Virus record (IMG/VR): IMGVR_UViG_3300042484_000084
Location: 1-20,284 of that record
Length of the DNA: 20,284 nucleotides
DNA from: a virus
Reading direction: 5' to 3' (one strand)
Positions 2,686 through 17,367 of this stretch are shown in pieces. Below the pieces are notes generated by a model. It ran no database searches and was not told the DNA's origin. It saw only the letters and a program-made list of their open reading frames with translations. A program made the translations under genes and the position numbers. Position 1 is the stretch's first letter. Each line of letters begins with the position of its first letter.

Positions 2686-2714
2686 TTGACAATAAATGGA
2701 TTTGGCTATACAAT
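2686..2714 (+). promoter_or_regulatory. Early-type promoter cassette P1
   Basis: TTGACA at 2686-2691, a 17-base spacer, and TACAAT at 2709-2714. The spacer begins ATAAATGG as in the three copies downstream. Compared with them it carries a CA insertion in the -10 region and lacks two spacer bases, so the 17-base spacing is preserved. It lies just after the stop at 2671-2673 and drives the gene at 2745. Confidence 0.8.
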
Positions 2715-2744
2715 AGAGTCTTATTCAGTCAAAAGGAGTTGTTC

Positions 2745-2957
2745 ATGGGTTACAAAGTTGTTGCAGACAAGTATCAGATGGATGAAATGCGTACAAAGTA
2801 CGGTCCTCGTCAGGGTCTAGAGGGCCCGTTCAATTTCTCTGGACGAGTGTTGTATTATGACAACAAAGAGGGTCAATACTATGATCCTAGGTCTGACTTT
2901 TATGTAGAGCAGGATGAAATGAATCAAATTCATGCAAATTTGATAGCCAAAATTTGA
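2745..2957 (+). CDS. Small unknown protein, early-type unit 1
   Basis: 70 residues beginning MGYKVVADKYQ. I chose the ATG at 2745 because it follows promoter P1 and an AAAGGAG ribosome site (2732-2738). A longer reading from TTG 2670 would need translation through the promoter, and its extra residues come from promoter DNA. The protein is soluble, rich in Tyr and Asp, with no recognised motif. Its TGA stop (2955-2957) lies inside the TTGACA of the next promoter. Strong private expression suggests an early host-interaction or regulatory role, which is inference. Confidence 0.75.
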   Translation: MGYKVVADKYQMDEMRTKYGPRQGLEGPFNFSGRVLYYDNKEGQYYDPRSDFYVEQDEMNQIHANLIAKI

Positions 2958-2982
2958 CAATAAATGGGCTTTCTGCTATAAT
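2954..2982 (+). promoter_or_regulatory. Early-type promoter cassette P2
   Basis: Perfect TTGACA (2954-2959), 17-base spacer, perfect TATAAT (2977-2982), with an extended -10 TGC just before it. The preceding gene's TGA stop occupies 2955-2957, inside the -35 box. The leader contains TCTTAGACAGT, shared with P4. It drives the gene at 3016. Confidence 0.88.
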
Positions 2983-3015
2983 AGAATCTTAGACAGTAAA
3001 GAAAAGGACTCGAAA

Positions 3016-3240
3016 ATGACCAAGCAATTCGTTCAAGTTAGCGCACAAAAAGACAGCAACAACTTTGCTCACTGTAGCAACCTGAGCCTCATGTCAAATG
3101 AGGGTCTGAATGCCGAACAAGCCCTGCGTAAATTGCAGGTTATGGCTGATGAATATGCATTGAACGGGTATAAAATTGAGTGGATCCGCAATGATTTTGA
3201 TCCAGTAGAAGAAGAAATGTACGGCGATTTGTTTGCCTAA
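3016..3240 (+). CDS. Small unknown protein, early-type unit 2
   Basis: 74 residues. The ATG at 3016 has an AAGGA ribosome site at 3004-3008 and sits about 27 bases after the predicted transcription start of P2. The middle (EQALRKLQVMADEYALNGYKIEWIRNDF) reads as one long helix followed by a beta strand, with a short acidic tail. I do not recognise it. The TAA stop lies two bases before the TTGACA of the next promoter. Confidence 0.8.
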   Translation: MTKQFVQVSAQKDSNNFAHCSNLSLMSNEGLNAEQALRKLQVMADEYALNGYKIEWIRNDFDPVEEEMYGDLFA

Positions 3241-3242
3241 AT

Positions 3243-3271
3243 TTGACAATAAATGGGTATTGTGCTATAAT
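3243..3271 (+). promoter_or_regulatory. Early-type promoter cassette P3
   Basis: TTGACA (3243-3248), 17-base spacer beginning ATAAATGGG, TATAAT (3266-3271) with extended -10 TGC. The core is nearly identical to P2 and P4, while the leader after the -10 has diverged. It drives the gene at 3301. Confidence 0.88.
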
Positions 3272-3300
3272 ACTTGTATAGATTGATTAAAGGAGCTTAT

Positions 3301-3624
3301 ATGATTGAACGTGAAACAGAACATAAATCTGCTGGCAAATTTGCATTCTTTGCGGCCCGTGACGCAAGTTTGAAAAGTGCAGTCAATGCAAGTCGTTTTA
3401 GTGATAGTCAAAAGATTAGAGCAGAGCGCATGAAGTTGGCCCTTGAAATGGTGTATGCCGCTGAAGAAGTTTCTATCACAAATTGTAAGAAATGGATTCG
3501 TGTGAAAGTTCACAAAGCACTCATTCGAGACCGCAAGAATTTGCGTTTGCTTGAGAAAGATTGGGCAAATGAAGGTACTACTAAAGTACACACTAATCAA
3601 GGTGTCATCTATCACGTAATTTGA
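3301..3624 (+). CDS. Small basic unknown protein, early-type unit 3
   Basis: 107 residues from the ATG at 3301, which has an AAAGGAG ribosome site at about 3290-3296. A TTG 27 bases upstream is open but would begin only 3 bases after the -10 of P3, before its predicted transcription start. The protein is basic and mostly helical (KIRAERMKLALEMVYAAEE, then NCKKWIRVKVHKALIRDRKN), ending in a short beta-like tail. I see no named motif; a nucleic-acid-binding role is possible from the charge. Its TGA stop (3622-3624) lies inside the -35 box of P4. A 120-codon reading on the opposite strand here is a shadow. Confidence 0.8.
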   Translation: MIERETEHKSAGKFAFFAARDASLKSAVNASRFSDSQKIRAERMKLALEMVYAAEEVSITNCKKWIRVKVHKALIRDRKNLRLLEKDWANEGTTKVHTNQGVIYHVI

Positions 3625-3649
3625 CAATAAATGGGCATTGTGCTATAAT
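3621..3649 (+). promoter_or_regulatory. Early-type promoter cassette P4
   Basis: TTGACA (3621-3626), 17-base spacer, TATAAT (3644-3649) with extended -10 TGC. The upstream gene's TGA occupies 3622-3624. The leader repeats TTCTTAGACAGT as in P2. It drives the AAA+ ATPase at 3682. Confidence 0.88.
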
Positions 3650-3681
3650 ATATTCTTAGACAGTCAAGTAAAGGAAACAAA

Positions 3682-4686
3682 ATGTCAAGCATCGTTCGTA
3701 TCACTTCAGGTTCTTATCGCAATGAATCAATCAAAGGTGAAGTTTTCACACTAGTTAAAGGTTATCAACTAGGTAATAAAGGTGGTTTTGTGACAGTAAA
3801 AAATGAAGGTCAGTTCCCCGGTCGTCCCGATCAAGTTCGTGTGAATGTTGACAATCAATCAATGATTGAATTTGTGTCAGGTCGTGATGCAGTAAAGGTT
3901 GAGACACCTAAAGAAACTGATGAAGAAGCAATGGACCGTATTGCTACTCGTTTCGGTGTGCTTGATGAAATGTCTAAGGCATGTATCAAAGGCGATATTC
4001 GTGCTATGATTGTAACAGGTCCTGCAGGTATCGGTAAGTCACATGGTGTGTCATTGCAAATGGAAAAAGCATCGTTGTTTGACAATCTTGCAAGCAAGAA
4101 GCCTCGCTTTGAAATTGTCAAAGGTGCTATGTCAGGCATCGGCTTGTTCGCTAAGTTGTACAAATTTTCTGATGCTAAAAACGTTCTCGTTTTTGACGAT
4201 TGCGATATCTGGGAAGATCAGGACGCTATCAACGTACTGAAAGGTGCTTTGGATTCAGGCAAGACTCGTAGAATTTCTTGGAACAAGGATAGTCGTCTTT
4301 TGCGTGAAGAAGGTATCCCTAACAGTTTCAACTTTAACGGCTCTATCATCTTCATTACAAACAAATCGTTTGATGCTAAGAAAGCCGGCAAGATGCAACC
4401 TCACTTGGATGCATTGCAAAGTCGTTGTCACTTTTTGGACCTGACTGTTGATACTGAGCGTGACAAAATGTTGCGTATCAAGCAAGTGCATCGTGATGCT
4501 GATGGTGGCTTGTTTGCTGAATATGATTTTACTCAGGAACAAACTGATGAAATCATGTCATTCATTGACGCTAATTGCAACAAATTGCGTGAAGTGTCCT
4601 TGCGTATGTGTTTGAAGGTTGCTGACTTGGTTAAGATTTCCGCTAACTGGCGTGAACTGGCTAAGGCAACTTGCATGAAAGGTTAA
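3682..4686 (+). CDS. AAA+ family ATPase
   Basis: 334 residues. Residues 1-70 are beta-rich and SH3-like in texture, with many Gly and Val. The ATPase core follows: Walker A GPAGIGKS (113-120), Walker B VLVFDDCD (168-175), sensor-1 strand SIIFITN (221-227) and an SRC sequence (247-249) on the following strand. The SRC placement resembles clamp-loader ATPases, but the different N-terminus and Walker A make a gp44 assignment doubtful. I call only the superfamily. The ribosome site AAAGGA (3670-3675), consensus promoter P4, codon choice rich in CGT and GGT, and the terminator after it suggest a strongly expressed final gene of its cluster. Substrate unknown. Confidence 0.85.
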   Translation: MSSIVRITSGSYRNESIKGEVFTLVKGYQLGNKGGFVTVKNEGQFPGRPDQVRVNVDNQSMIEFVSGRDAVKVETPKETDEEAMDRIATRFGVLDEMSKACIKGDIRAMIVTGPAGIGKSHGVSLQMEKASLFDNLASKKPRFEIVKGAMSGIGLFAKLYKFSDAKNVLVFDDCDIWEDQDAINVLKGALDSGKTRRISWNKDSRLLREEGIPNSFNFNGSIIFITNKSFDAKKAGKMQPHLDALQSRCHFLDLTVDTERDKMLRIKQVHRDADGGLFAEYDFTQEQTDEIMSFIDANCNKLREVSLRMCLKVADLVKISANWRELAKATCMKG

Positions 4687-4763
4687 CCCCTGCAGTGTGC
4701 GTAGAGGCAATGTCAATAAGTCCTCTTCGATAAGTTTTTCGTTTCTTTCTTTAGTTAATTTTT

Positions 4764-4788
4764 GGGGAACTTAGGTTCCCCTTTTTTT
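4764..4788 (+). terminator. Rho-independent terminator after the AAA+ ATPase
   Basis: A perfect 7-bp stem GGGGAAC / GTTCCCC with a TTAG loop (4764-4781), followed by seven T residues (4782-4788). It closes the cluster of early-type promoter cassettes and isolates it from the next unit, whose promoter starts ten bases later. Confidence 0.92.
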
Positions 4789-4798
4789 GCCTATAAAT

Positions 4799-4827
4799 TT
4801 GCATTTTGTGTAGTGTCCTGTTATAAT
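4799..4827 (+). promoter_or_regulatory. Promoter of the 4834 unit, probably leaderless
   Basis: TTGCAT (4799-4804), exact 17-base spacer, perfect TATAAT (4822-4827), and an extended -10 TG at 4819-4820. The expected start of transcription, seven bases after the last -10 base, is 4834, the A of the ATG. Confidence 0.8.
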
Positions 4828-5841: not shown

Positions 5842-7316
5842 AAGAATGTAAGCTAATAATTAGAGATGAAGTGAATGTTAAACTTGAGGGACTAGAACTA
5901 GGAGACCGCAAGACATTGATGAAAATGTTTGAGTTTGAAGTCCCCGGCGCAAGATATCTTCCTGCAGTAAGGTTAGGTAGATGGAATGGTAAGAGTAGTT
6001 TCTTTGCACTAGGTGGTAGTACATATATCAACTTGCTACCAGAGATATTGCCATTACTAGATCAGGCTGGATATGATATTGAACTAGATGATACCAGAGA
6101 CTATCAAACAACATTCACATTTACTGAAGTGTCCGAGGATACATTCAAGCACAAGAATTGGCCAGTAGGTCATCCAATGGCGGGACAACCTATTATATTG
6201 CGTGACTATCAAATTGAGATTATCAACAACTATTTGAAGAACCCTCAGTCACTACAAGAGATTGCTACAGGTGCAGGTAAGACATTAATCACCGCCGCAC
6301 TATCAAGTTGTATAGAACAATATGGACGTAGTATTGTTATTGTACCTAACACAAGTCTGGTCACACAAACAGAAAAAGATTATATCAACTTGGGTTTAGA
6401 TGTAGGTGTGTATTACGGTGGACGCAAAGAGTATGACAAGACGCATACAATCTGCACGTGGCAATCATTAGGTAACATGTTGAAGAACACTAAAGCAGGT
6501 GAAGCCGAAGTACCATTTCAAGACTTCATTGAAGGCGTAGTGTGCGTGATTGTAGATGAAGTACATCAAGCAAAAGCCGATGTTCTTAAATCATTGTTGT
6601 CTGGTGTGATGAGTCGTATTCCATTACGGTGGGGCTTGACTGGAACGATCCCTAAAGCTAAACATGAATCAATGTCATTGACTGTAAGTTTAGGTCCTGT
6701 CATTAATCAATTGTCGGCAAGTACATTACAAGACATGGGCGTGTTATCACAATGTCATGTGAACATTGTTCAATTGCAAGATGGTATGGAGTTTACTAAC
6801 TATCAAAGCGAACTTAAATTCTTGACCAGTGATGAAAAACGAATGCAGAAAATTGCTGAGTTATCTAATACAGTTAAGAACAGCGGCAACACATTGATCC
6901 TTGTAGACAGGATTGAAGCGGGACAACTATTGCATTTGAAACTAGAAGAATTAGGTGTGCCGGAAGAGAATGTAGTGTTTGTATCAGGTGGTACTAAAGG
7001 TACAACAAGAACAGAACACTATGATGACATTGCTACTGCTACTAATAAGATTATCATTGCAACATACGGTGTTGCCGCAGTTGGCATTAACATCCCTCGT
7101 ATCTTTAATGTGATGCTATTAGAACCGGGCAAGAGTTTCGTAAGAGTTATTCAGTCTATTGGTCGTGGCATTCGTAAAGCAGAAGATAAAGATTTTGTGC
7201 AGATTTGGGACATTACAAGCAATTGCAAGTTTGCCAAACGACATTTGACACAACGGAAAGCATTCTACAAAGAAGCTAACTACCCGTTTGATGTAGAAAA
7301 ACTAAAGTATAAGTGA
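5838..7316 (+). CDS. uvsW: UvsW, superfamily 2 DNA/RNA helicase
   Basis: 492 residues against 503 in T4. UvsW rewinds and regresses forks, processes branched DNA and unwinds R-loops, shutting off origin-dependent replication late. The N-terminal domain keeps the UvsW signature: FEFEVPGARYLPAVRLGRWNG (31-51) matches T4 FSFEADGYRFNPRFRYGNWDG in spacing. Helicase motifs are Q-like RDYQ (122-125), motif I ATGAGKT (143-149), motif II DEVH (240-243), motif III LTGT (267-270) and motif VI QSIGRGIRK (439-447). Its TGA stop overlaps the -10 region of the next promoter. Confidence 0.95.
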   Translation: MKECKLIIRDEVNVKLEGLELGDRKTLMKMFEFEVPGARYLPAVRLGRWNGKSSFFALGGSTYINLLPEILPLLDQAGYDIELDDTRDYQTTFTFTEVSEDTFKHKNWPVGHPMAGQPIILRDYQIEIINNYLKNPQSLQEIATGAGKTLITAALSSCIEQYGRSIVIVPNTSLVTQTEKDYINLGLDVGVYYGGRKEYDKTHTICTWQSLGNMLKNTKAGEAEVPFQDFIEGVVCVIVDEVHQAKADVLKSLLSGVMSRIPLRWGLTGTIPKAKHESMSLTVSLGPVINQLSASTLQDMGVLSQCHVNIVQLQDGMEFTNYQSELKFLTSDEKRMQKIAELSNTVKNSGNTLILVDRIEAGQLLHLKLEELGVPEENVVFVSGGTKGTTRTEHYDDIATATNKIIIATYGVAAVGINIPRIFNVMLLEPGKSFVRVIQSIGRGIRKAEDKDFVQIWDITSNCKFAKRHLTQRKAFYKEANYPFDVEKLKYK

Positions 7317-17304: not shown

Positions 17305-17351
17305 GAAGTTTAACTTCAAAGAAATCCGAGATTTATTCTCGGATTTTTTTT
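17305..17351 (+). terminator. Rho-independent terminator after the virion-type gene
   Basis: The main hairpin has a perfect 9-bp stem AAATCCGAG / CTCGGATTT (17322-17330 and 17338-17346), loop ATTTATT, and a T run to 17351. A smaller hairpin GAAGT/ACTTC (17305-17317) precedes it. It ends the transcript four bases before the next late promoter. Confidence 0.9.
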
Positions 17352-17354
17352 GCC

Positions 17355-17362
17355 TCTAAATA
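17355..17362 (+). promoter_or_regulatory. T4-type late promoter
   Basis: TCTAAATA, six of eight matches to TATAAATA, immediately after the terminator. Expected start 17368, the A of the next ATG, so the transcript would be leaderless. Confidence 0.6.
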
Positions 17363-17367
17363 TACAT

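Follow-up and report, generated by a model that had tools for sequence, protein, structure and literature searches.

The four promoters P1 to P4 described here probably belong to a clade-wide family of strong sigma70-type promoters of uncultured jumbo phages, which would combine an extended -35, modules exchanged between promoters and a role as the joint of gene cassettes, and which are probably active early. In a member of this family, the -35 is perfect or nearly so, the spacer to the -10 is always 17 bp long, and the word NTAAATSR comes right after the -35. The promoters lie in a 20,284-base virus fragment, hereafter the window, whose source is an uncultured jumbo phage.

Four promoters in a jumbo-phage fragment

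The window encodes a set of replication genes, i.e., UvsX (79-1146), a UvsY-like protein, a helicase, an exonuclease, a polymerase-related protein and a primase. Among cultured phages, it is closest at the DNA level to jumbo phages, e.g., PA5oct and CBB, which were found via UvsX at 67-69% nucleotide identity, and the same gene order is present in a 348.7-kb viral contig (G002), with UvsX at 94%. The four-gene block (2686-4788) interrupts the UvsX-UvsY-helicase replication region. In PA5oct, a related ATPase lies more than 100 kb away from UvsX.

All four promoters are on the + strand and begin with an exact copy of TTGACAATAAATGG (n = 4), for which 0.0004 copies would be expected by chance from base composition (Table 1). 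No fifth copy was found across the 20,284-base record with up to two mismatches allowed. The spacer is 17 bp at 4/4 promoters and is followed by TACAAT in P1 and TATAAT in P2 to P4, in agreement with the four-copy cassette, 17-base spacer and TATAAT-type box described in an earlier, sequence-only reading of this DNA. P1 to P4 all have the arrangement of a sigma70-type promoter (TTGACA, 16-18 bp, TATAAT) and score 11-12 out of 12 against that consensus. The sequence-only reading had also taken ATAAATGGG as the conserved sequence; its third G is not conserved (A in P1), and the word kept across relatives is NTAAAT followed by G/C and then G/A. The leader it had noticed in P1, P2 and P4 was confirmed as TCTTA-(TT/GA)-CAGT, while that of P3 differs (ACTTGTATAGATTGA). 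Each promoter precedes a single gene, and the four genes, previously described as unrelated, do fall into four separate protein families. Genes 1 to 3 have zero relatives among 50,697 phage records and gave only weak Pfam matches, under the cut-off. The ATPase (gene 4) has distant relatives in phage records, e.g., at 39% in PA5oct.

Table 1. Positions of the promoters, leaders, genes and flanking signals of the four-promoter block in the window.
Feature	Position	Strand	Remark	Basis
Upstream 275-aa gene (ORF 1846-2673), stop codon	2671..2673	+	12 bp before P1	sequence
P1: TTGACA - ATAAATGGATTTGGCTA (17) - TACAAT	2686..2714	+		
P1 leader: AGAGTCTTATTCAGTC...AAAGGAG	2715..2744	+	module precedes 10 gene families	
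Gene 1, 70 aa, phrog_13298 (family without assigned function)	2745..2957	+	stop TGA 2955-2957 within P2 -35	
P2: TTGACA - ATAAATGGGCTTTCTGC - TATAAT	2954..2982	+		
P2 leader: AGAATCTTAGACAGT...AAAGGAC	2983..3015	+	module precedes 17 gene families	
Gene 2, 74 aa	3016..3240	+	stop TAA 3238-3240, 2 bp 5' of P3	
P3: TTGACA - ATAAATGGGTATTGTGC - TATAAT	3243..3271	+		
P3 leader: ACTTGTATAGATTGATTAAAGGAG, GATTGA-type module	3272..3300	+		
Gene 3, 107 aa	3301..3624	+	stop TGA 3622-3624 within P4 -35	
P4: TTGACA - ATAAATGGGCATTGTGC - TATAAT	3621..3649	+		
P4 leader: ATATTCTTAGACAGT...AAAGGAAAC	3650..3681	+	module precedes 4 gene families	
Gene 4, 334-aa AAA-type ATPase, phrog_1250 (family without assigned function)	3682..4686	+	slot's anchor gene	
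Intrinsic terminator GGGGAAC-TTAG-GTTCCCC-T7	4764..4788	+	end of four-promoter block	

The genome scan suggested by the sequence-only reading, for the cassette and the genes behind it, found the cassette throughout the genomes of relatives and before unrelated genes. TTGACAATAAATGG-N9-TAYAAT is present in more than 119 viral stretches among the matches listed, often with two to five per contig, and the promoter precedes dozens of unrelated small-gene families in related viral stretches. An unbiased scan of G002 for sigma70 consensus promoters returned 52 matches compared to about 21 expected, and the sites located before genes mostly carried NTAAAT. Six promoter-gene units stand in tandem on the minus strand of G002 (233049-234661), 286-339 bp apart and with one promoter per gene. 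A host origin of the promoter was rejected: 257 Gb of bacterial genomes yielded 26 scattered TTGACAATAAATGG-N9-TAYAAT matches, mostly in Bacillota, all single and none multi-copy. A 58-nt promoter query found no convincing match in cultured phages, and TTGACANTAAAT has zero copies in PA5oct, CBB, XaC1 and T4 and one copy in Atu_ph07. A literature search for the promoter motif (TTGACAATAAAT) found no report of it and returned unrelated mouse papers only.

Conserved and exchanged parts of the promoter

To avoid circularity, relatives were fetched by protein and not by motif. TTGACA-17-TAYAAT was present upstream of the ATPase in 58/58 distinct sequences. Within the spacer of these 58 regions, ATAAAT (-29 to -24) reaches 1.5-2.0 bits, near the hexamers, compared to mostly 0.3-1.0 bits at other positions and 1.4 bits at a single G at -16. 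Among 258 unbiased promoters with a gene behind them, TAAAT was found at spacer offset 1 in 223 (86%) and at other offsets in none; when the two query families were left out, 131/150 promoters carried it. The remaining 35/258 sigma70-like promoters of the clade deviate from the word. These values bear out the earlier claim that spacer conservation goes beyond what sigma70 requires. The bases after NTAAAT are G/C then G/A (spacer positions 7-8), with A at position 7 in 1/265. In G002, a perfect TTGACA stands beside 16/16 TAAATGG-N9-TAYAAT, and the -10 follows at 17 bp for 21/21 copies of TTGACANTAAAT. Because the word always adjoins the -35 in G002, TTGACA-NTAAATSR is best read as a clade-wide extended -35, i.e., one composite element and not a separate box.

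The rest of the spacer and the leader vary. We assembled 648 distinct promoter-gene units, partly selected by motif, whose genes form 137 clusters with singletons counted. The first 15 nt past the -10 are recurring modules, and a single leader module stands before up to 17 gene families. At least 20 changes of leader class occurred along a tree built from 80 ATPase genes. Among same-family pairs in which the 150-nt flanks on either side match at 85% identity or more, 61 differ by a switch of the whole leader; these all belong to a single gene family (cluster 2) with shared ancestry and do not represent 61 events. The spacer half alone was switched in another 67 pairs from three families, under the same flank threshold and again with pair counts that share ancestry. 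As shown by comparison of these sequences, the second spacer half and the 5' leader are exchanged as modules between promoters. Switches between unchanged flanks could be due to short gene conversion but not to a single crossover between flanking genes. In addition, sharing of spacer halves by neighbouring promoters exceeds expectation (34 compared to 16 +/- 3), which fits local conversion, and 27 adjacent promoter pairs are nearly identical across 30 nt. Part of the recurrence of spacer halves could reflect convergent selection instead of conversion, and the excess among neighbours could partly stem from clade-specific preferences. Anti-recombination, in which neighbours would be kept unlike to protect the gene between them, was rejected, neighbours being slightly more alike than expected. 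The promoter cassette had been proposed as the part that moves; promoter segments do move independently of genes, but whole promoter-plus-gene units move too.

The promoter also coincides with gene borders. The stop codon of the upstream gene is exactly the TGA of the -35 (tTGAca) in 186/428 units, representing 56/114 upstream families, and the second commonest stop position is 4-7 bases 5' of the -35. In the window, the stop lies within the -35 at P2 and P4. Between two fixed anchor genes, 114 loci display 20 gene arrangements, with each gene under its own promoter. An intrinsic terminator was found within 75 nt upstream in 22/537 units and in 0/4 of those in the window. This comparison shows that the promoter is the joint of single-gene cassettes, often supplying the upstream gene's stop codon, and that gene content between the fixed anchors changes by gain, loss and replacement.

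Proposed mechanism and alternative readings

We propose that these promoters fire early, during immediate takeover of the cell, with the host RNA polymerase. Such timing and polymerase use are suggested by the sigma70 consensus, the small genes without assigned function and the likeness to promoters of T4, CBB and a kayvirus. The extension would increase promoter strength, or a factor associated with RNA polymerase would read it. Phage recombination by UvsX/UvsY, encoded next door, could exchange short patches of the common promoter sequence and thereby spread promoter variants. Any other cassette joint could then take up a promoter-gene unit, which would fit with correct ends and bring the means of its own expression, and the small genes may have takeover roles.

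The second of these two readings of the extension can be made specific, as a possible, though less than probable, alternative: a factor that the phage encodes or that arrives with the virion would bind NTAAATSR (-29 to -22) beside sigma region 4 and turn these promoters on, or off, as a class, its site overlapping a host-type promoter. In its favour, the word has a specific letter order beyond A+T richness, and bases at positions 7-8 are restricted, with A nearly absent at position 7. RNA polymerase has no known contacts with spacer bases upstream of -15 (PMC2613000), and promoter spacer sequence is seldom conserved (PMC8695583). However, in G002 the word was never found as a separate box and always adjoins a perfect TTGACA at one spacing, and it has no dyad symmetry. 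Zero matches were obtained in three relatives for the MotA and AsiA families, in searches without a positive control, and for Sigma70_r2 (phage sigma factor), for which the controls worked. A MotA-type middle promoter, in which an activator box near -30 takes the place of the -35, was rejected, since an intact TTGACA always stands beside the word in G002. With a similar probability, NTAAATSR could be the site where a putative phage factor docks beside sigma region 4 with the -35 intact, which would define a class of promoters within a large clade of uncultured jumbo phages; such a composite promoter would at the same time be the cassette joint, its -35 giving the stop codon of the gene before it.

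Recent duplication was one of two causes offered by the sequence-only reading, the other being binding of another factor. A tandem duplication of a single promoter, with spacers identical for want of divergence time, draws support from the four near-identical copies inside 1 kb as well as from the 27 near-identical adjacent pairs. It is nevertheless very unlikely, as ATPase orthologues with as little as 77-80% amino-acid identity retain ATAAAT even where the adjacent spacer half and the leader are replaced. Likewise, divergence per site in most families is 0.03-0.08 for the 20 core positions compared to 0.17-0.51 for the spacer half. Duplication as the sole cause is refuted, although local copying still contributes, and comparison across these relatives indicates that the NTAAATSR extension is maintained by selection. 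We also considered a T4-type late promoter nested in the spacer, leading to both early and late expression. ATAAATA, often as GATAAATA, is more frequent than any other motif upstream of genes in G002 (53/294 called genes compared to 5.5 expected) and would be a T4-type late promoter of the clade; it has 6/7 bases in common with ATAAATG. Yet its final A seems to be required, given that ATAAATG and ATAAATC occur before genes outside these promoters 4 times (4.9 expected) and once (4.1 expected), respectively, and the early word almost never has A there (1/265). The T4-type late core TATAAATA, including its final A, is not what the spacers carry, and this nesting was rejected as highly improbable. 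Elsewhere in the window, at 4782-4804 and 17345-17367, a terminator-like T-run is directly followed by late-promoter-like CTATAAAT and CTCTAAAT, respectively (repeat D12). PeSL (promoter-early stem-loop) cassettes of T4-type phages, reportedly described by Arbiol in 2010 and Comeau in 2014, would be a further candidate. In the strict sense, they are composites of a stem-loop terminator and an early promoter that mediate gene shuffling in T4-like phages. The apparent role is the same, with repeated early-type promoters at gene borders and small genes shuffled between related phages (the 20 arrangements at 114 loci). Nonetheless, the defining stem-loop is missing from all but the 22/537 units with a nearby terminator and from all of P1 to P4, and where the -35 itself contains the stop codon, as is often the case, there is no space for it. 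An identity with strict PeSL is thus hardly credible.

If the window holds members of an early, modular promoter family as we propose, this would show how small takeover genes could be continually exchanged in giant phages. Each such gene would come along with a promoter of its own, which would also mark the border between the end of one gene and the start of the next. The extension offers a cheap and specific test case, i.e., a strictly conserved signal between -35 and -15, a region without known specific polymerase contacts. Its signature could also help to find early genes, probably directed at the host, across hundreds of contigs from uncultured jumbo phages.

Comparison with early promoters of other phages

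PeSLs of T4-type phages are described as repeated early-type promoters between small genes, with shuffling at the joints (PMC4503421). Repeated early-type promoters and gene shuffling at joints are found in the jumbo clade too; in contrast, 96% of the jumbo-clade units have no stem-loop terminator, the -35 itself is often the joint and contributes the stop codon, and the spacer has its own signature. T4 early promoters are strong sigma70 promoters with extra consensus regions beyond the hexamers (PMC2988021), a feature they have in common with the promoters described here, but T4 is without any TTGACANTAAAT. In Kayvirus vB_SauM-515A1, 58 early promoters with TTGACW, a 17-bp spacer and an extended -10 were identified by RNA-seq (PMC7698491). 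The reported extension adjoins the -10, whereas that of the jumbo clade adjoins the -35. Finally, 18 strong RpoD-like promoters were predicted in jumbo phage CBB, most of them before short unknown genes, and were proposed to act in early takeover (PMC5259590). In the CBB genome (NC_041878), repeated sigma70 promoters at 6000, 8945, 12071 and 13127, with further copies near 362-369 kb, have a common spacer sequence, GTTAGAGTACTT, directly 5' of the -10. CBB, which has no TTGACANTAAAT, seems to carry its own repeated signature in the other spacer half, which suggests that clade-specific early-promoter signatures may be more widespread among jumbo phages.
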